Shown: in pieces, positions 5,779 through 26,528 of the stretch | Numbering within the stretch: position 1 is the stretch's first letter | How the letters are laid out: every line of letters starts with the position of its first letter | Assembly (NCBI GenBank): GCA_023380935.1 | Contig: JAMCST010000016.1 | Location: forward strand, 1-64,000 | From: Patescibacteria group bacterium | GTDB lineage: Bacteria > Patescibacteriota > Microgenomatia > UBA1406 > GWC2-37-13 | DNA length: 64,000 nucleotides | Reading direction: 5' to 3' | Translations under genes and position numbers: made by a program | Notes under the pieces: generated by a model | What the model saw: the letters and a program-made list of their open reading frames with translations, nothing else | Told to the model about the DNA's origin: nothing | Databases searched by the model: none

Positions 5779-6570
5779 TTGATGAACAAAGTCTCCCGGT
5801 TCTTCATTAATCTGGGCTTTACCAAGGAACAGTCGGACATTTACCTTACCCTTTTAAAAGACGGGCCGCAGACCGTTTTGCAGCTGTCGCGCAAAACCAA
5901 TGTCAACCGCACCACTCTTTACCGGACGCTCGAAAAACTGCACGCGCAAAAATTAGTTGAGGAAATTATCGACGAATACAAAAAACTTTATAAAGCGGCT
6001 GATTTTCATACCATTGATTTACTTGTCAAAGAACAGGAAAACCGAACCGAGTTTCTAAAAACCGCATTTCCAGAAATAAACGCGCTATTAACATCAACCA
6101 GCTCAAGCCAACCGGGAACAAAAGTGGTTTTTTACCGCGGAAGCGATGGTATTAGACAAATGGGTTGGAATACTTTAAAAGCCAATCGGATAGTTATGGG
6201 CTATACTTATCGTCGTTTTGAAGAAGTTGTTGGTGAAAAATTTGCCAAAGACTGGTGTGAGGAATTTATCGATCGTGGATTGCTGCTGCGGGAAATTTAC
6301 TCAAACGAACTTTATAAGAGCAAAGAGCAAGGCTATCGACAGATAACTTATCCGTCAGCACATTTTCAAGAAAAATATATCCAACCGACAATACTAAACA
6401 TCAATCATCAAATGGATATCTATAACGATGTTATTGGTATTTATAACTGGCACGAGGGTGAAATATTTGGAGTCGAAATCTACAATGAAAAAGTCGCCGC
6501 CATGCACAAGCAAATATTTGAGATTGTCTGGAAAATAGCCATTAAGCCGCCAAAAAACCTCAAACTTTGA
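5779..6570 (+). CDS. TrmB-family transcriptional regulator (wHTH plus effector domain)
   Basis: FFINLGFTKEQSDIYLTLLKDGPQTVLQLSRKTNVNRTTLYRTLEKLHAQKLVEE. Confidence 0.85.
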   Translation: MMNKVSRFFINLGFTKEQSDIYLTLLKDGPQTVLQLSRKTNVNRTTLYRTLEKLHAQKLVEEIIDEYKKLYKAADFHTIDLLVKEQENRTEFLKTAFPEINALLTSTSSSQPGTKVVFYRGSDGIRQMGWNTLKANRIVMGYTYRRFEEVVGEKFAKDWCEEFIDRGLLLREIYSNELYKSKEQGYRQITYPSAHFQEKYIQPTILNINHQMDIYNDVIGIYNWHEGEIFGVEIYNEKVAAMHKQIFEIVWKIAIKPPKNLKL

Positions 6571-7342
6571 GGATCATTCCCACCACATATCCAACTAGGG
6601 CGGACACCATTCCGATAATCAACATTTCCGCTCCCTGACGGAGAAAATGGCGACCAAGCGTCATTTTGGCTTTGTAATAACCCAGGCCAAACAATGTCAG
6701 CGCCGATATCGCCAATCCCGAATTCATGGCCAAACGCGTCGGGAAAAAGAAAAACGGCGTCAAGGGAATGAATGACCCGATAATGGCCGAGACTCCGACG
6801 ACGACGGCGACCGGCAGCGCCTGTCTTCTCTCCACCGGTTCCAGTTTAAGCTCCTGTTCCATCATTACCTTTAACCAGATTCCTTTGTCCTTAGTGATCG
6901 TTACCACAATATCGTCTAGGGTTTTGCCGCTGAAGCCGTAACTCTCGTAAAGCGCGCGGATTTCTTCTCTTTCTCCTTCGGGCACATGTTCGATTTCATA
7001 TTTTTCCCGTTCGTATTCCGACCGGTAGTAGTCGGCGTCGGCCAGTTTGGTCGTATAGGCCACCGCCGCCATGGAAACCGATTCGGCAAAGGCCGCGGCC
7101 AATCCCGCGACAATCACGATTTTATTGGAGGCAGTGGCTGCTGCCACACCCAATATGATTCCCAACACGTTAACCAAACCGTCCTGGCCGCCGAGGATAA
7201 TATCGGAAAGATTAAATGTCCGTTTATGGCCTTCTTCGTGGTGGATGTCGCGGCGGATTGCCCTGGCCGAATGCGTCTCTTTAATCTTCTTGAGGTTGCG
7301 TTTGAGATAAGCGTCACGTGCACTCTCCACTCGGGTAATCAT
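6560..7342 (-). CDS. VIT1/CCC1-family membrane protein
   Basis: LSDIILGGQDGLVNVLGIILGVAAAT and a C-terminal membrane region. Confidence 0.85.
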   Translation of the reverse strand: MITRVESARDAYLKRNLKKIKETHSARAIRRDIHHEEGHKRTFNLSDIILGGQDGLVNVLGIILGVAAATASNKIVIVAGLAAAFAESVSMAAVAYTTKLADADYYRSEYEREKYEIEHVPEGEREEIRALYESYGFSGKTLDDIVVTITKDKGIWLKVMMEQELKLEPVERRQALPVAVVVGVSAIIGSFIPLTPFFFFPTRLAMNSGLAISALTLFGLGYYKAKMTLGRHFLRQGAEMLIIGMVSALVGYVVGMILKV

Positions 7343-7349
7343 ATGATGA

Positions 7350-7970
7350 TTATAAAACAATATGATGAATACGACAACGGGCTTGGTAGCTGTCCCACGC
7401 GCCGACTTTGATCAAAGCATCGCGATGGGAAGCCGGTTTTCCGTTAGCCGATAATCGCTGGGTACGGGTGGCGTTCCATTTTTTGCAAACGGCGCAGACC
7501 GCTTTTAACTTGACGACCTCGCCGTCGGCCAGGGCCAACAATTGCGGCATGACGCCGAACGGTTCGCCGCGGAAGTCCGTATCCAGCCCGGCCACCACCA
7601 CATGGATATGCTGTTGCAATAGTTGGTTCACTACGCCAATAATGGTCTTGGGAAAAAACTGCACCTCGTCGATCACCACTACTTTGGTGTTTTTGTCGAT
7701 TTTGTTCAAGATATTTTCCGGGTTTTGGATACTTACCGCACGCCACTTTCGTTTTGAGTGCGAAACGATTCGGTTGGTGACATAACGATTGTCTAAGACA
7801 TGATTAAAAACGACGGTTTTTAACCCGGCGATTTTGTAGCGTTGCAGTCGCTTGACTAACTCTTCGCTTTTGCCGGAAAACATCGGGCCGGTAATCACGT
7901 CCAACCGACCATAACTAATCAACCTGGCAGGTTGGTTTTTGCTTTGGCGGGACGGCCTAGATTTGATCAT
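7350..7970 (-). CDS. tdk: Thymidine kinase (type II)
   Basis: GRLDVITGPMFSGKSEELVKRLQRY, VVVIDEVQFF, GLDTDFRGEPFG, CAVCKKWNATRTQR. Confidence 0.95.
   Translation of the reverse strand: MIKSRPSRQSKNQPARLISYGRLDVITGPMFSGKSEELVKRLQRYKIAGLKTVVFNHVLDNRYVTNRIVSHSKRKWRAVSIQNPENILNKIDKNTKVVVIDEVQFFPKTIIGVVNQLLQQHIHVVVAGLDTDFRGEPFGVMPQLLALADGEVVKLKAVCAVCKKWNATRTQRLSANGKPASHRDALIKVGAWDSYQARCRIHHIVL
7917..7937. repeat. Palindromic element, family C, copy 1, in the 5' part of tdk
   Basis: AATCAACCT-GGC-AGGTTGGTT; shares 20 nt CAACCTGGCAGGTTGGTTTT with 23577-23599. Confidence 0.75.
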
Positions 7971-9234
7971 TTTTGATATTCTGTCTGATAAGCTCCATCA
8001 GCTTTTCCATCACCCATAAATTATGGTACGTGGCTAAATTATAACCAAGGATTTCCCGCTGTTTAAACAAATGATGCAGGTAGGCTTTGGTAAAGTGACG
8101 GCAGACATAACAACCACAACCGGTCACCACCGGCTCCAGATTGTTACGATAGTGTCCCCGCATTATATCCAGTTTTTCAAACTGCACAGATGCCAGGCTG
8201 AATTCCCGATGATTAAGCCTTAGTATTTCTCCCATCCGCGCCAGCCGGGTCGGCTCGACACAATCGAAAGTATCGATGCCGTACCTGACCAGATCAACAA
8301 TGTCGTCGATCTGACCGACACCGAGCAGGTGTACCGGCCGATCGTCGGGCAGGTAATCGGCTACCCAGCGCACCTGATCACGCATCTCTTTTTTGCTTTC
8401 GCCCACCGACACTCCCCCAATCGCCACGCCGGACGTATTTTGCCCCACGACAAATTTTGCCGATTGTTTTCTTAAATCCTCAAACGTTGCTCCCTGGATT
8501 ACTCCGTAAAGATATTGATTTTGCCTGCGACAGGTGGCAGGAGGAAAAGGGTTCCCGACAGCGCGCAGTTTACGAGCACTGGCGGGAAATGAACTCCTGA
8601 CAGAATCTGTCGCCGTACCAGTTTTGAGTTTATGCTTAATACATCTTTTCAACCACTCGTGAGTCCGCTCCATCGCTTGCTGTGCATAACGGCGGGTGGC
8701 CGGATAGTAGGTGCATTCGTCAAACGCCATGTTGAGATCGGCACCGATCTGGCGCTGATATTCCATTGATTTTTCCGGAGTAAACTCAAGTAGTTCTCCA
8801 TCAAACACCGAACGGAATTTCACACCATCATGCGATATTTTTTCAATTAGCGGCCGCTCCGGCCTAACTTCATCATCCTGAAGAACTTTAGCACGCTGAT
8901 GCTGGTCGCTATGATTTAGCCTACGCCCTAACGAAAACACCTGAAATCCGCCCGAGTCGGAGATCAACGGCAGATTTAACTGGCTAAACCGGTGGATGCC
9001 GCCGGCCGACTCCACCACTGCCGCTCCCGGATGGGTTACCAGATGATAGGTATTGACAAACGCGAGCTGGATGCCGATCTCATTGGTTAAGCTGGGAAGC
9101 AGTGCCTTAATCGCTCCTTTTGTCCCCACCGGTACAAATGCCGGGGTAGTGACGGTTCCGTGATCGGTACAGATTTTTCCCAGACGGGCGCGCGATTTTT
9201 TAGACCGCAAGAGGTTTTGGAAAAACTTACCCAT
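7957..9234 (-). CDS. tgt: Queuine/archaeosine tRNA-guanine transglycosylase
   Basis: LISDSGGFQVFSLG, KFRSVFDGELLEFTPEKSMEYQRQIGADLNMAFDEC, YGVIQGATFEDLRKQSA, TGCGCYVC. Confidence 0.95.
   Translation of the reverse strand: MGKFFQNLLRSKKSRARLGKICTDHGTVTTPAFVPVGTKGAIKALLPSLTNEIGIQLAFVNTYHLVTHPGAAVVESAGGIHRFSQLNLPLISDSGGFQVFSLGRRLNHSDQHQRAKVLQDDEVRPERPLIEKISHDGVKFRSVFDGELLEFTPEKSMEYQRQIGADLNMAFDECTYYPATRRYAQQAMERTHEWLKRCIKHKLKTGTATDSVRSSFPASARKLRAVGNPFPPATCRRQNQYLYGVIQGATFEDLRKQSAKFVVGQNTSGVAIGGVSVGESKKEMRDQVRWVADYLPDDRPVHLLGVGQIDDIVDLVRYGIDTFDCVEPTRLARMGEILRLNHREFSLASVQFEKLDIMRGHYRNNLEPVVTGCGCYVCRHFTKAYLHHLFKQREILGYNLATYHNLWVMEKLMELIRQNIKNDQI
8527..8613 (+). repeat. Structured palindromic element, family A, copy 1, inside tgt
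   Basis: Nested stems GCGACAG/CTGTCGC, CAGGAG/CTCCTG, TTCCCGACAG/CTGGCGGGAA with loops shared with 16749-16836. Confidence 0.85.
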
Positions 9235-9799: not shown

Positions 9800-10897
9800 C
9801 TATTTAATTAACATTGCGTCGCCAAACGAGTAGAGCCGAAACTTTTCCCCGACGGCAATCCTATACAGATCGATCAAATGACGTCGGGAGTGCTTATGTT
9901 GGAGAAACGCCTCGACCAGCATCATTAGCGACGAACCGGGTAGATGAAAGTTGGTAATCAACGCATCAATCATCTGGAAGCGATATGGCGGAAAGATAAA
10001 TAAGTCGGTTTTCCCGATGACTGATTTAACTGATGATTTAGCCGATCGCAACTGATCCCAGCTTGGTCGGTGGTTGATTACAACTGACTCGAGCGTCCGC
10101 ACCACCGTGGTACCCACTGCCACCAACTCCTTACCTTCATTTTTCAGTTGATTAATTAACTGAAAAGTAGAAACGGGAACTTCATACCATTCCTCATGGA
10201 GTTTTTTTTGCTTAAGATTCTGCTCGGTTACCGGAGCAAAGGTTCCTAACCCCACATGGAGCGTAAGGTAATGGCGTTTTATTCCTTCCCGGTCCAGTTT
10301 ACTCAATAATCGATTGGTGAAATGAAGTGAGGCGGTGGGCGCCGCGGCCGATCCTTCTTTTTGAGCAAAAATCGTTTGGTATTTTTGCTTTAACTCAACT
10401 TGGCTTAACGGAGTATTTTTAATATATAACGGAATCGGCATCGTTCCTTTATCCTCCAGAACAGAAAATAGCTCTCCAACCGAAAAATCAAACCGCAGGG
10501 TAAAAATATGCTCCTGCTGATCAATTACTGTCATGAAATATCGCTGATCGAAAAACAGCCGGTCGCCTATTTTAATTTTTCGATCAACCATGGCCCTGAC
10601 TGTATTTGCCTTTTCCCTAGTAACTGGTAACCGATCGCCAATAACTTCATTAATTAAAAACAACGCCTTCGCTTTGCCTCCGGAGGTTTTCCTCATCTCC
10701 ACTCTGGCCGGCACCACTTTAGTATTGTTCATCACCAAAAAACTGGGCTTGGGAAGATAGCGGCCCAGATGATAGAAATAATCAAGCTCTACGCTATTTG
10801 ATTTGGTGTCGTAAACCAACAGACGTGAATGATCGCGCGGCACGGCCGGTTGCTTGGCGATCAGTTCAGAAGGCAAGTCGTAATAATATGGTTTCAT
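9800..10897 (-). CDS. queA: S-adenosylmethionine:tRNA ribosyltransferase-isomerase
   Basis: MKPYYYDLPSELIAKQPAVPRDHSRLLVYD, HVGLGTFAPV, AVGTTVVRTLES, TNFHLPGSSLMMLVEAF. Confidence 0.95.
   Translation of the reverse strand: MKPYYYDLPSELIAKQPAVPRDHSRLLVYDTKSNSVELDYFYHLGRYLPKPSFLVMNNTKVVPARVEMRKTSGGKAKALFLINEVIGDRLPVTREKANTVRAMVDRKIKIGDRLFFDQRYFMTVIDQQEHIFTLRFDFSVGELFSVLEDKGTMPIPLYIKNTPLSQVELKQKYQTIFAQKEGSAAAPTASLHFTNRLLSKLDREGIKRHYLTLHVGLGTFAPVTEQNLKQKKLHEEWYEVPVSTFQLINQLKNEGKELVAVGTTVVRTLESVVINHRPSWDQLRSAKSSVKSVIGKTDLFIFPPYRFQMIDALITNFHLPGSSLMMLVEAFLQHKHSRRHLIDLYRIAVGEKFRLYSFGDAMLIK
10141..10166. repeat. Palindromic repeat, family B, copy 1, in queA
   Basis: TTTTCAGTT-GATTAATT-AACTGAAAA; 23-nt identity with the gpmI copy on the opposite strand. 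Confidence 0.75.
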
Positions 10898-11024
10898 GAG
10901 TAAAGAGCTTTTGATATTATACGGTAAATTATCGCTGGACGTCGCCGCATGTTGACAACCCAATAATCGTTTAGTAAAATATTACAGGATATTCTGTTAC
11001 TAATTTACTAATTAATTTTAAAAC

Positions 11025-11594
11025 ATGGCAAATTCTTTCGATAACTTAACTATCGCCCGCGCTTCATTAGATATGGTTCAACGATGGTCAACATCTAAAC
11101 AACTAAGAACAGCTGAAAACCTCCCAAACGATGCACCTCAATTACCCTTAACCGAACCACAAGCAATTTCTGTCGCCGTGATGCTAACTGCAATTTCCGG
11201 TGGTTTGGCGCGTATCCATGATACCCACGCTTTCCAAACCGAATTCCTTACTCCCCAAGCAGATTCAACTGGTATTAGAGTATTGGAACGCTCTGAAGAG
11301 CCTGATGGCTCTTGGTCACAACCACTTTACGCAACAGGAGGACTGGATCGTAAACAAGACGCCGCAGTTGATATCTACGGAGGAAAATCTCAACAACCAA
11401 CCTCGGCACTCGTAAGACTAGATAAGGGAACTACAGTGTTCTCAGCATCTGTCTCTGGACCGGTACACGCATCCACAGTTAACGTTTATGATTTATCTCA
11501 CACTCAACCAGCAGAATCTCCAACGGCACCGCAAGAATTAGTTGCTCGTCTGTTGTCTGCGTTGGCAAACATTCGAACCAAGATGCAGGTGTGA
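11025..11594 (+). CDS. Hypothetical protein
   Basis: 189-aa intact ORF, no recognised domain. Confidence 0.55.
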   Translation: MANSFDNLTIARASLDMVQRWSTSKQLRTAENLPNDAPQLPLTEPQAISVAVMLTAISGGLARIHDTHAFQTEFLTPQADSTGIRVLERSEEPDGSWSQPLYATGGLDRKQDAAVDIYGGKSQQPTSALVRLDKGTTVFSASVSGPVHASTVNVYDLSHTQPAESPTAPQELVARLLSALANIRTKMQV

Positions 11595-21261: not shown

Positions 21262-23631
21262 ATGGATAACTTCCGTCACTTAACCTGGAGGAAGCGCATT
21301 TCCCTTCTTGCCTCACTCCTATTACTACTTCTAATTGGTTTTGGTTTTCTACTCAGATCAATCAACCCCACTTACAAAAACCGGGCGGCGGAGACCAACG
21401 ACATTATCCGTTTAAATCAGCAACTGCTTCAATTAACGCGTCTACCTCGTTCAGATTCAAGCCTCTATGCAATCGCCTTGCGAAGAAAAGAATTATTATT
21501 AAAAGAGTTAAAACAAAACCCAAAGGCTTTTTTAAATCATGTCTTATCTCCTGACAAAATCGCATATCTTCCGATTGAAATTAAAAATAGCGACTTGGTC
21601 GAAAAAGAGACTAAACTCGAAGGAAGAATAGACGTATTGCATTTTGACGATTTTAATAACAAAACCAGCGGCACAATTTACCGAATGTCGGGGTATAACC
21701 TGCATTTCAGTGAAGACCCCCCTCAAGTCTTAACGGGAACAATTGTGGTAGCAAGCGGCATCGCGCTTAACTCAGAGCTAGTTGTTAACCCTAGTGATCC
21801 GGGTCGTTTTCAAATTAAAATAAAACCCAAGGCAAAAACACAAGCGGTTGGCGACATAAAAATTGCGTCTTTGTTGATTAACTTCGCCGATAACCCATCT
21901 TATCAACCTTATACTGCCGAACAAGTAAAAAATATGCTTTTTGATTACAGCTTATCAGTTAACAACTATTACAAAGAGGTGTCTTTTAACCAAGTTCGCT
22001 TGAGCGGCAATGTCTTTGGTTACTACACAATTCCTTTCAGTGGCAATAGTAATTGTGATTACGAAGCTTGGAGTAGCTCGGCATGGGCAATGGCGCAACA
22101 GGCTAGTGTTCCTTTGCAAGATTACGATCATTACATATACGTATTCGCCGACAACGTTTGCGGTCAGGCTTTTCCTGCCATAGCTCAATTGGGGGGAAAC
22201 GAAATCTGGCTGTTTAACACACCGAGTAACGCTGTTATCGCTCACGAGTTAGGCCACAACTTCGGGCTCAATCATGCAAATTATTTAAACTGTAACGGAG
22301 AACCAATCGATCGCTACTCGAACTGCACTGAGGTTGGCTATGGTGACCCTTATGACGTAATGGGAGCTGGAAATATGTTTCATACGAACGCATTCAATAT
22401 GATTACTGAAGGATGGATTCCTGCCTCGCGTGTTATCAACGTCTCAGAAAGCGGGACTTACACAATTTCCCCTTTGGAACTTTCCAGTACTCTCCCACAA
22501 GCGATAAGAGTCCTAAAACGTGATACAAACGACTATTATTATCTAGAATATCGACAACCGATTGGTGTTTTTGATGCGCCTTTAAGTGCATATGCTGGCG
22601 CTACGCGAGGCGTTTTGATACATCTGGTAAGAGGGAATCTGCTGGAAGCAACGACCTTGTACATAAACAATTACCCAAGCACATCCTCTTTCCCTGCTCT
22701 TGCCGACGGTGATAGTTTTGAGGATACAAATGGTGCGGTATCAATTACCCAAATTAGCCATGATGATAATAAGGTTATTTTATCTGTCGTTGTTCCCAAG
22801 ATCACTCTTACTCCTACACCAACTCCAACTCCAACCCCAACAATTACCCCAACTCCTTCTGCCACCTCCCAATCTGGAAAAGCTTTGTATTTCGATGGCG
22901 CAAGTTATTTGCAGACTCAAGACACTGGTAATAAAGTTGCACTGACTTCTCAATTTACCTTCGAAGCCTGGATAAAACCTGATCATGCCACAGTCTCAAA
23001 CTTCCAAACATTACTGTCAAGATATTATCAATCCCAGCCAGATCTGTATTATCACCTGTTTCTATATACTAACAAAGAAACGGACAAGTCCGAGTTGCGG
23101 TTTTCTAACGGAAAAAAAGGCATTGGTAGCTCAGAGGTTATCCCCGCTAACGACTGGACTCATATTACTCTTACGCGTAACGGCAACACCTTCACTTTGT
23201 TCATTAACGGCCAAACTGCAGCTTCGGGAGATTTTGATCCCACCGGCCAAATTCCAACCAATCCGCAAAACGTGTTTTACCTTGGAGCGTGGCGACCCAG
23301 TTCCACGGTATTTTACCAATACCACGGCGCCATGGATGCGGTGCGCATCTCCAATACGGTACGGGATGTAGTGAATAACTGGAACAGCGGCGCCTATCTG
23401 CGTCCATATGTGGTTGATGGTTATACCCAAGCGTATTGGCGATTCGAGAACAACCTGACCGACCAAAGCCAGAATAACCTCTCCAGTACGGTGGTGGGCA
23501 CCACCACTTACGTGCCGGGCAAAGAAAGCTCCGATCCTAACGGAGAACCACTCGGTTCGGCGAACCAACCTTCGGCAAACCAACCTGGCAGGTTGGTTTT
23601 CGGGTTGGTAAGACGGGCTGGATTAAATTGA
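21262..23631 (+). CDS. Secreted metzincin (M11 gametolysin-like) protease with C-terminal LamG-like domain
   Basis: N-terminal TM/signal; AHELGHNFGLNH zinc motif with YDVMGAG Met-turn; (TPTP)n linker; FTFEAWIKPD LamG-like. Confidence 0.8.
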   Translation: MDNFRHLTWRKRISLLASLLLLLLIGFGFLLRSINPTYKNRAAETNDIIRLNQQLLQLTRLPRSDSSLYAIALRRKELLLKELKQNPKAFLNHVLSPDKIAYLPIEIKNSDLVEKETKLEGRIDVLHFDDFNNKTSGTIYRMSGYNLHFSEDPPQVLTGTIVVASGIALNSELVVNPSDPGRFQIKIKPKAKTQAVGDIKIASLLINFADNPSYQPYTAEQVKNMLFDYSLSVNNYYKEVSFNQVRLSGNVFGYYTIPFSGNSNCDYEAWSSSAWAMAQQASVPLQDYDHYIYVFADNVCGQAFPAIAQLGGNEIWLFNTPSNAVIAHELGHNFGLNHANYLNCNGEPIDRYSNCTEVGYGDPYDVMGAGNMFHTNAFNMITEGWIPASRVINVSESGTYTISPLELSSTLPQAIRVLKRDTNDYYYLEYRQPIGVFDAPLSAYAGATRGVLIHLVRGNLLEATTLYINNYPSTSSFPALADGDSFEDTNGAVSITQISHDDNKVILSVVVPKITLTPTPTPTPTPTITPTPSATSQSGKALYFDGASYLQTQDTGNKVALTSQFTFEAWIKPDHATVSNFQTLLSRYYQSQPDLYYHLFLYTNKETDKSELRFSNGKKGIGSSEVIPANDWTHITLTRNGNTFTLFINGQTAASGDFDPTGQIPTNPQNVFYLGAWRPSSTVFYQYHGAMDAVRISNTVRDVVNNWNSGAYLRPYVVDGYTQAYWRFENNLTDQSQNNLSSTVVGTTTYVPGKESSDPNGEPLGSANQPSANQPGRLVFGLVRRAGLN
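23577..23599. repeat. Palindromic element, family C, copy 2, near the 3' end of the M11/LamG gene
   Basis: AAACCAACCT-GGC-AGGTTGGTTT, perfect 10-bp stem. Confidence 0.8.
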
Positions 23632-24438
23632 AAACAGGAGTTTGGCATTATGGGTGGTTTGCTCGGCTAGCGCTTCTTCGGATAAATTTAAGGCGGTACT
23701 GACAAATCGATTAATTAAAACAATATTGGCCGGTTGATTGGGGTATTGTTTTTGAGAACGAAGCGGTTCGGGTAAAAGAAACGGTGAGTCGGTTTCTAAA
23801 ACCAATAAATCCAACGGTACTTTTTTTATAAATTCCTGTTTATTCTGGTTGTAGGTAATGTCGCCGTCGACACCGACATAGATTCGGTGTCTAACGGCAA
23901 AATCCAGCAGTTCATCATCCGGCTCGCAGCAGTGAAATACGGTTTTTCCTTCCAGCCGTTTGTCCCAATGGCTTTCCAGCAGCGGCAACAGATCATGCTT
24001 TGCCTCACGGTTATGCAAAATCAGGCTTTTATCATGTTTCAGCGCCAACTTGATTTCTTCGACCAGTAGCTGTTTTTGCCGGTCAGCAAAATCTTGATCA
24101 ATCACATAATGATCGTATTTGGTTTTTTGGTAGATAAAATAGTCGAGCCCAACCTCACCGATCGCTACGACTTTGGGACGTTGTAGTAATTTTTCGATGG
24201 CGTTTATCGGGTCGGGAAACCCGACCCTTACGCTGGCGTGGTGTGGATGGATACCCACCGCGGCATAGACATTGTCATATTGGCTGGCGATCGTTGCAGC
24301 CGCGGATGACGTCTGGTCGTCGGTACCAGGTACTAAAAGATGTGTCACGCCGGCGCGGGTAGCCGAGTCAATTACTTCAGATACATTCTTGCGCAACGCT
24401 TTGAAGTTCAGATGACAATGGGTGTCAAACATAGGCAA
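23623..24438 (-). CDS. tatD: TatD-family deoxyribonuclease
   Basis: MFDTHCHLNF, GIHPHHA, AIGEVGLDYF, LILHNREAKHDLL, LVLETDSPFLLPEP. Confidence 0.92.
   Translation of the reverse strand: MPMFDTHCHLNFKALRKNVSEVIDSATRAGVTHLLVPGTDDQTSSAAATIASQYDNVYAAVGIHPHHASVRVGFPDPINAIEKLLQRPKVVAIGEVGLDYFIYQKTKYDHYVIDQDFADRQKQLLVEEIKLALKHDKSLILHNREAKHDLLPLLESHWDKRLEGKTVFHCCEPDDELLDFAVRHRIYVGVDGDITYNQNKQEFIKKVPLDLLVLETDSPFLLPEPLRSQKQYPNQPANIVLINRFVSTALNLSEEALAEQTTHNAKLLFSI
24209..24227. repeat. Palindromic element, family D-like, inside tatD
   Basis: GGGTCGGG-AAA-CCCGACCC. Confidence 0.65.
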
Positions 24439-24469: not shown

Positions 24470-25996
24470 ATGCTTTTTTACTATTTGACAGCCTTGGTGC
24501 TGGCGGGGCTGGGGTGGTTGGACGCCCGCTACCTGACGTTAGTACATTACCAGCAGGCGATTTTAGTCTGCGCCCGCTACACGATCTTTGTCGACTGCGG
24601 CAAGGTACTGCAAAGTCCGTACTCCGCGATGTTCGGAATACCCCTGGCGGTCATTGGCCTGATTAATTATTCGCTGTTGTTACTGGCGATCAGCGCCTCA
24701 TTTCTGACGCGCAAAAAACTGTTTTCTTACTGGCTGGTAATCCAAACGGCCGGGGCGTTCCTGGCGTCGGTGTATTTCATGTACCTGCAGATCTTTGTGA
24801 TCGGCAGCCTTTGTCTGTACTGCACCGGCTCGGCCTTAATCAGCTTGCTGTTGTTCCTGATCGTCTTGGTCTCGCAAAAACCAGCCGTGCTAGATGTAGT
24901 GGGTATGATTTATCAACTCGTTATCAAACCGGTGTTTTTTTGGTTTGATGCCGAACTGGTGCATGAAACCGTCATTAATCTGGGACAGATCCTGGGTCGA
25001 GTCTGGCTGGTCAAGTCGATCCTGGTTTTTTTTATGAAATCAAACCGCCCGGCGTTACACCAGACACTGGCCGGCATCAGTTTTACCGGACCGGTCGGTC
25101 TGGCAGCCGGCTTTGACTACCAAGCCAAACTAACCCGTCTTTTACCCAACCTTGGTTTTGGCTTTCAGACCGTCGGAACGATTACCAACCGGCCGTACGG
25201 CGGCAACCCGCCTCCCCGGCTCGGCCGGCTGCCCAAATCAAAGTCATTACTGGTCAATAAAGGCTTTAAAAATCCCGGGGCTAGCGCCACGATCAGCCGT
25301 TTGACCAACGAGGAGTTTGCCATTCCGGTCGGCATCAGTCTCGGTCGCACCAATTCCCGCCGCCTGGTAACCCAACGATTAAGCGTTAACGACATTACCG
25401 AGGCGTTTGAAAAATTTGAACACTCCGGCCTACGCCACGCCTACTACGAACTGAACATCAGTTGTCCCAACCTGTTAGGAAAAGTTGAGTTCTACTCAAC
25501 CCGTCATTTAACCCAACTGTTGACCGCCCTCCGGTCCCAAAAAATCAGCCGGCCGGTTTTTGTAAAAATGCCGATCGAAAAAACCGACCGGCAGTTTTTA
25601 GCCATGCTGCAAATCATCAGCCGGTTTTCCTTTATGAAAGGCGTCATCATCGGCAATCTGCAAAAAGACCGGCGCGATCCGGCCTTTGACCAGGAAGAAA
25701 TAAAACGGGCCGGCCGCGGTAATTTCAGCGGCAAGCCTACTTGGAAACGCTCCAACGAACTGATTAAGTTAACCTACCAAGCATACAAGCGGCGTTTTGT
25801 CATTGTCGGCTGCGGCGGTGTGTTTTCTGCCCAAGACGCCTACGAGAAAATCAAACTGGGCGCCTCTCTGGTGCAGCTAATCACAGGGATGATCTACCAG
25901 GGACCGCAGTTAATCGCCCAGATCAATCTGGGACTGGAGGAACGGTTGCGCCAAGACGGATTCAGGAGTATCCAGGAGGCCATTGGTACGGCATAA
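24470..25996 (+). CDS. Fusion protein: N-terminal VKOR-like domain plus C-terminal dihydroorotate dehydrogenase (class 2-like)
   Basis: One uninterrupted ORF: ILVCARYTIFVDCGKVLQSPYSAMFGIPLAVIGL and GSLCLYCTGSA (VKOR), then FDAELVHETV, GLAAGFDYQAKLTRLLPNLGFGFQTVGTITNRPYGGNPPPRLGRL, NISCPN, IVGCGGVFSAQDAYEKIKLGASLVQLITGMIYQGP (DHODH). Confidence 0.88.
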   Translation: MLFYYLTALVLAGLGWLDARYLTLVHYQQAILVCARYTIFVDCGKVLQSPYSAMFGIPLAVIGLINYSLLLLAISASFLTRKKLFSYWLVIQTAGAFLASVYFMYLQIFVIGSLCLYCTGSALISLLLFLIVLVSQKPAVLDVVGMIYQLVIKPVFFWFDAELVHETVINLGQILGRVWLVKSILVFFMKSNRPALHQTLAGISFTGPVGLAAGFDYQAKLTRLLPNLGFGFQTVGTITNRPYGGNPPPRLGRLPKSKSLLVNKGFKNPGASATISRLTNEEFAIPVGISLGRTNSRRLVTQRLSVNDITEAFEKFEHSGLRHAYYELNISCPNLLGKVEFYSTRHLTQLLTALRSQKISRPVFVKMPIEKTDRQFLAMLQIISRFSFMKGVIIGNLQKDRRDPAFDQEEIKRAGRGNFSGKPTWKRSNELIKLTYQAYKRRFVIVGCGGVFSAQDAYEKIKLGASLVQLITGMIYQGPQLIAQINLGLEERLRQDGFRSIQEAIGTA

Positions 25997-26069: not shown

Positions 26070-26528
26070 ATGACCATCTTCTTCGGTGCCGACCACCGGG
26101 GGTTTGAACTGAAAAACAAGTTGATGGAATATCTTCAGGAAAAAGACATCCGCGTTCAGGACTTGGGCAACTACCAGTTTGACCCGGAAGACGACAATCC
26201 GGACTTCGCCCATAAGGTAGCGATAGCGGTCCAGCAAAATCTGACTGAGTTTATGGGGATTTTGATCTGTGGATCGGGCGTAGGCATGAGTATCGTGGCT
26301 AACCGCTACCCCGGTATCAGAGCGGTACTTGGTTTTGAGACAGAACAGATCCGTCATGCGCGGGAAAACGATCACGTCAATGTGTTAGCCCTGCCGTCTG
26401 ATTACGTTGACTTCGAAAAGGCCAAGCTGTTGGTAGATAGTTTTATCCACTCCCAGCCTAAGGCCGAAACAAAATATATCCGCCGGGCCAAGAAAATGGA
26501 CGAGGTTGTCAGACCGACTACGACTTGA
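26070..26528 (+). CDS. rpiB: RpiB/LacA/LacB-family sugar-phosphate isomerase
   Basis: FFGADHRGFELKNKLMEYL, ICGSGVGMSIVANRYPGIRAVL, ARENDHVNVLALPS. Confidence 0.9.
   Translation: MTIFFGADHRGFELKNKLMEYLQEKDIRVQDLGNYQFDPEDDNPDFAHKVAIAVQQNLTEFMGILICGSGVGMSIVANRYPGIRAVLGFETEQIRHARENDHVNVLALPSDYVDFEKAKLLVDSFIHSQPKAETKYIRRAKKMDEVVRPTTT

Follow-up and report, generated by a model that had tools for sequence, protein, structure and literature searches.

Bacterial VKORs and class 2 dihydroorotate dehydrogenases (DHODHs) are the described systems closest to the protein reported here. The two ends of a four-helix VKOR lie in the cytoplasm, the N-terminal helices of a class 2 DHODH form its membrane and quinone-tunnel region, and elsewhere a Cys base characterises class 1 DHODH. 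In the VKOR-thioredoxin protein of Synechococcus (3kp9/4nv5), the attached thioredoxin domain lies on the exported side. Four positions after the CXXC motif, the VKORs of M. tuberculosis and humans have Trp or Tyr (PMC11208910). Class 2 PyrD, represented by the enzymes of E. coli (1f76) and M. tuberculosis (8ofw), uses a catalytic Ser. In fungi, rare class II DHODHs whose base is Cys work anaerobically, one of them with free FAD/FMN, and no VKOR fusion is described in the paper on these enzymes (PMC8520639). Also, no VKOR-DHODH fusion was found in the open-licence literature, nor was VKOR relevantly linked there with Patescibacteria, in agreement with the earlier note on this DNA, which knew of no described example.

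The window, meaning the whole analysed stretch of 64,000 nucleotides, belongs to a draft genome (G000; 940 kb, 17 contigs, 84.7% complete) that groups with Patescibacteria; among its close matches with a name are Roizmanbacteria, Woesebacteria, Gottesmanbacteria and other Microgenomates. One gene in it encodes a VKOR domain and, C-terminal to it, a class-2-DHODH-like flavoprotein domain (residues 146-507), and the features are collected in Table 1. An alternative GTG start at 24422 would lengthen the product to 524 aa. Further upstream, at 21262-23631, lies a large exported-looking protein bearing the metalloprotease-type motif HELGHNFGLNH.

Table 1. Features of the fusion gene and its immediate neighbours (window positions; residue numbers are those of the 508 aa product)
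Feature	Position	Strand	Basis or remark
VKOR-DHODH-like fusion gene	24470..25996	+	Single uninterrupted ORF from ATG to stop (stop included), 508 aa
VKOR domain	24491..24865	+	Pfam match, residues 8-132
CLYC active-site motif of the VKOR half, C115-C118	24812..24823	+	Alignment of fusions
Junction and class-2 N-terminal helices (137-156, 161-177, 179-189)	24878..25036	+	Model, NCBIfam, Foldseek, alignment
DHODH-like barrel (Pfam DHO_dh)	25055..25948	+	Cys332 at the catalytic-base position (NISCPN); Y217, V262, L397 changed
TatD-family DNase, divergent neighbour	23623..24438	-	Outside the system
RpiB-type sugar-phosphate isomerase, downstream neighbour	26070..26528	+	Outside the system

The N-terminal half matches Pfam VKOR (PF07884) with E=5e-24 and a score of 85.3 bits (cut-off 27.5). 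Four transmembrane helices are predicted (2-28, 59-80, 83-111, 116-135), and the key residues are the loop cysteines C34 and C43, S49, and the pair C115-x-x-C118. Among 56 aligned fusions, both CLYC cysteines are invariant in all, and the full set of C34, C43, S49, C115 and C118 is invariant in the 55 that cover it, one row being incomplete. Modelled alone, this half reached a pLDDT of 90 and matched Synechococcus VKOR (4nv5, TMq 0.82; 4nv2, 0.83) as well as human and Takifugu VKORs; the entry 6wv8 matched with TMq 0.77. Searches by sequence with a profile built from the fused VKORs likewise recover Synechococcus VKOR (E=3e-14) and the Takifugu VKOR-like protein (E=6e-5).

The C-terminal half matches Pfam DHO_dh (E=8e-51, residues 196-493) and exceeds the cut-offs of both TIGR01036, the class 2 DHODH model (229 bits vs 200), and NF003652 (284.6 bits vs 267). 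In Foldseek it resembles the class 2 DHODHs of M. tuberculosis, H. pylori, E. coli and humans, 8ofw and 6b8s included. From its fold and conserved barrel residues, this half would bind FMN. The class-2 N-terminal helices, of quinone-tunnel type as judged from the fold, are retained. In an AlphaFold model of the full-length protein, run with a 50-sequence alignment, both folds are well modelled (mean pLDDT 93.4, pTM 0.90), and TM4 is followed almost at once by the first class-2 helix. The spacing between C118 and H165 is 50 residues in 47 of 56 fusions and 46 in the window protein. A basic loop between TM2 and TM3 (R81-K82-K83) agrees with both ends being cytoplasmic, and the cytosolic placement of the flavoprotein fits the four-helix VKOR topology. 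In one genome of another class (G008), additional sequence between the domains reads as two more transmembrane helices, so the same cytoplasmic side would be kept.

It can be seen that the earlier reading of this gene was sound in its architecture. It had described an uninterrupted VKOR-DHODH ORF, which is borne out by the ORF itself, the Pfam and NCBIfam matches, the models and the recurrence reported below. The motifs that it named are present (loop C34/C43, C115-L-Y-C118, FDAELVHE and NISCPN). The domain search and the AlphaFold check that it proposed placed Pfam VKOR and DHO_dh far above their cut-offs and recovered the VKOR and class 2 DHODH folds, the N-terminal part matching Synechococcus, human and Takifugu VKORs in AlphaFold and Foldseek. 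The call of a class-2-like DHODH likewise holds, by both NCBIfam models and by fold.

Like the VKORs of Synechococcus and M. tuberculosis, the fusion has four helices, two loop cysteines, a CXXC motif and a conserved Ser, and its genomes likewise contain DsbA-like partners. However, the domain that it carries is a DHODH-like flavoprotein on the cytoplasmic side, by topology, rather than an exported thioredoxin domain. The residue at CXXC+4 is Ala in 53 of 56 fusions, in contrast to the Trp or Tyr of the M. tuberculosis and human enzymes; Ala was also seen by eye in some unfused relatives. With the class 2 PyrDs the fusion shares the barrel fold and the N-terminal helices, whereas the active site differs. 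When 54 fused domains were aligned with E. coli PyrD (E. coli numbering), the catalytic Ser175 was Cys in all 54, and the corresponding Cys332 is present in 56 of 56 fusions. Moreover, K66 is replaced by Tyr, N139 by Ser and T247 by Leu in 54/54, and N111 by Val and Y318 by Ile in 53/54; N172, S174, N177, K217 and N246 are kept. Within the set of K66, N111, N172, N177, N246 and T247, which we take to be the orotate contacts of E. coli PyrD, N172, N177 and N246 are thus kept and K66, N111 and T247 replaced. The Cys, Val and Leu recur in most unfused Patescibacteria relatives, the Tyr in part of them. With the fungal enzymes the fusion shares a class II scaffold whose base is Cys, a combination linked to respiration-free work; those enzymes, however, are the organism's pyrimidine DHODH, as the fusion probably is not, and that of Anaeromyces is soluble and works with free FAD/FMN (PMC8520639).

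The same architecture, which the earlier note had proposed to look for in other genomes, is not confined to the window. A single-ORF fusion exists in about 45 of 382 sampled genomes of the same class, spanning seven family groups (f1, f2, f3, f11, f14, f155, f171), and the phylum sample adds two genomes of other classes (G003, G008). In named contigs, 50 of the best 80 loci were fused. No conserved operon surrounds the gene: no other gene family is common to more than 17 of 50 fused loci. Unfused forms also occur. One genome (G689) has an unfused VKOR with the DHODH-like gene directly after it, and another (G697) has consecutive unfused genes for a DsbA-like protein, VKOR and a DHODH-like protein. 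In the latter (L158, G697:C5) the run is on one strand, and the sequence before the DHODH-like start resembles a translated tRNA gene. In many relatives a DHODH-like gene of this type stands unfused, among them G442, G450, G510, G528, G726 and G638, in which no VKOR was found; this indicates that the domain also works without VKOR.

In a tree of the DHODH domain, fused and unfused members are intermingled, which implies several gains or losses of the fusion. Between 15 and 17 changes of the fused label are required, starred branches forcing at least 5-6 of them, on a tree with many weak branches and a remote outgroup, in which the automatic label left out G003 and G008. A single origin of the fusion was considered and set aside on this count of changes, though many branches are weak. 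Additionally, three genomes (G312, G226 and G287; L031:385-2034, L032, L033) have a PAP2 phosphatase-type membrane domain N-terminal to a DHODH-like domain, in the position that VKOR occupies in the VKOR fusions, together with separate VKOR and DsbA-like genes. These proteins resemble the VKOR fusion in joining an N-terminal polytopic membrane domain to a Cys-base DHODH-like domain; however, the membrane part is here a phosphatase, which has no function in redox chemistry, and their DHODH part keeps Lys at position 66, where the VKOR fusions have Tyr. They indicate that two fused domains do not necessarily have a chemistry in common. Two further loci (L100 and L101) are apparently one fusion gene, since their match coordinates, identity and E-value agree; as one contig bears the label WWE3 and the other Roizmanbacteria, a genome may have been misbinned or mislabelled.

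Gene presence was tested in 39 genomes, 37 with the fusion and 2 with adjacent genes, absence being called by HMM searches of draft genomes. PyrB and PyrF were both unmatched in 18 of the 39 (16 of the 37 fused), at a median completeness of 96%, and in most of these genomes PyrE was missing or only a weak phosphoribosyltransferase-type match. Two fusion genomes of 100% completeness (G313, G507) gave neither PyrB nor PyrF, and the window genome, about 85% complete, gave no match to PyrB, PyrE or PyrF. Fifteen fusion genomes have both PyrB and PyrF; a second DHO_dh-family gene lies near the pyr genes in 11 of them and elsewhere in 3, nearness being judged from hit coordinates only, except in four genomes read directly. 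In these four, a class 1 PyrD stands between pyrC and pyrF (G454), a PyrD with PyrK (class 1B) close to pyrE/pyrF (G584), and a divergent DHO_dh-like gene between pyrC and pyrE (G157, G478). The fusion gene itself was away from the pyr genes wherever these were located. The coupling of pyrimidine synthesis to disulfide formation that the earlier note had suggested is not supported: many fusion genomes are without PyrB, PyrE or PyrF, most that bear the pathway hold a separate DHODH-family gene, usually near pyr, and the fused domain is altered at the catalytic base and at orotate-contact residues. The fusion is probably not the cell's pyrimidine DHODH.

In 33 of 37 fusion genomes no VKOR besides the fused one was matched; the other 4 have a second, three above the cut-off and one a weak match. 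A DsbA-like protein (PF13462) was found in 36 of 37, that of the window genome being L157:652-1302 (G000:C2). Neither COX1 (haem-copper oxidase) nor cytochrome bd subunit I was matched in any of the 37, although controls gave matches. The latter subunit was found in only 1 of 74 tested genomes (G638:C2:174358-175641), which has the unfused DHODH-like gene and no VKOR. UbiA was tried as a quinone marker and proved uninformative, with matches general in the class; the one clear homologue in the window genome most resembles decaprenyl-phosphate phosphoribosyltransferase, which would leave scavenging as the source of the quinone. CPR genomes lacking quinone biosynthesis genes have also been reported by others (PMC8407418).

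The conserved tight fusion, the usual status as sole VKOR and the persistence without a pyrimidine pathway suggest that the flavin half serves disulfide chemistry and not pyrimidine synthesis. The explanation we prefer, held tentatively at somewhat below an even chance, is a disulfide-forming membrane enzyme into which a flavin partner is built, the two sharing one quinone site and the flavin half re-oxidising the quinol. The fusion would act in the cytoplasmic membrane as a self-contained thiol-redox enzyme. In its VKOR half, electrons would pass from an exported DsbA-like protein to the loop pair C34/C43, then to C115/C118 and to a bound quinone. The class-2-DHODH-like half would lie on the cytoplasmic side of the membrane, its quinone tunnel adjoining the VKOR bundle, and would exchange electrons between VKOR's quinone and its FMN. 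The likely net flow would run from DsbA thiols through VKOR, quinone and FMN to a small cytosolic acceptor or O2, the flavin half thereby re-oxidising the quinol made by VKOR in cells without a terminal oxidase; this direction is favoured because no terminal oxidase of the two tested families was found. The predicted thiol-to-quinone path in one half and quinone-to-flavin path in the other are supported by homology. So is the quinone link proposed in the earlier note, both parent families reacting with quinone and both domains being intact and tightly joined. We infer the binding of FMN and quinone, the direction of the electrons and the cytosolic substrate, the identity of that substrate being the weakest step of the mechanism. 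A narrower form, which we consider rather unlikely, is a respiratory-chain-free disulfide enzyme in which VKOR would pass electrons to a captive quinone, then to the attached DHODH-derived, non-orotate flavin domain and on to a soluble cytosolic acceptor. The PAP2-DHODH fusions and the unfused relatives in genomes without VKOR are the main cautions for the disulfide reading; the UbiA result and genome G456, taken up below, also count against it. Fusion genomes have VKOR and DsbA-like proteins, yet neither main terminal oxidase family, which makes the route of quinol re-oxidation a puzzle; the conserved VKOR-flavoprotein fusion is a concrete, testable candidate for the missing step. Moreover, an annotation as quinone-dependent DHODH in Patescibacteria may not denote a pyrimidine enzyme, a point that bears on metabolic reconstructions.

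Several other explanations can be weighed against this one. That the C-terminal half is a working DHODH, with dihydroorotate and thiol electrons both entering one quinone pool, would agree with the class 2 model scores (TIGR01036, NF003652), with the retained N172, N177, K217 and N246, and with the activity, also anaerobic, of Cys-base class II DHODHs in some fungi (PMC8520639). One genome (G456) has pyrB/pyrE/pyrF and no PF01180 match beyond the fusion, so the fusion could be the DHODH there. However, the loss of PyrB and PyrF in 16 of 37 fusion genomes, another DHODH-family gene in 14 of the 15 that have both, the near-universal pocket substitutions and the lack of either tested oxidase family for quinol re-oxidation make this reading unlikely. 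The flow could also be reversed, a cytosolic donor reducing the quinone through the flavin half and the quinol driving VKOR backwards to reduce exported disulfides, in the manner of DsbD. Potentials of DHODH-bound FMN of about -242 to -330 mV, which PMC8520639 cites, would permit this, and the DsbA-like partners and the lack of the two oxidase families are equally compatible with it; since those bacterial VKORs that have been characterised act as oxidants (PMC11208910), we regard it as very unlikely.

The N-terminal domain might instead be chiefly a membrane anchor for the flavoprotein, with the halves independent of each other. The unrelated PAP2 domain at the same position in three genomes and the coming and going of the fused state on the tree speak for such a role. 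Against it stand the invariant VKOR cysteines, the usual lack of any other VKOR, the presence of VKOR as the partner in all other fusions read, G003 and G008 of other classes included, and the unfused DsbA-VKOR-DHODH-like gene neighbours; with these, the anchor role becomes distinctly improbable. An assembly chimera or a frameshift joining two genes, which the earlier note had raised as what would refute it, can be dismissed as having a negligible chance, because the single-ORF architecture recurs across independent assemblies, in about 45 genomes and 50 named contigs; the pTM of the full-length model also speaks against it.

The divergent DHO_dh-like proteins in the pyr clusters of G478 and G157 (L209, G478:C3; L208, G157:C2) are about 360-386 aa long, and the former adjoins a lyase of the fumarase/aspartase family, which hints at fumarate as electron acceptor. 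The cluster of G456 (L214, G456:C2:161500-177000) has no DHODH; FrdA/FrdB-like genes (6541-8196, 8204-8863) lie in it among pyrB, carA, carB, a pyrC-like gene, pyrE and pyrF, together with an aspartate ammonia-lyase (10230-11519), and the Frd-like pair may have a part in the dihydroorotate step.
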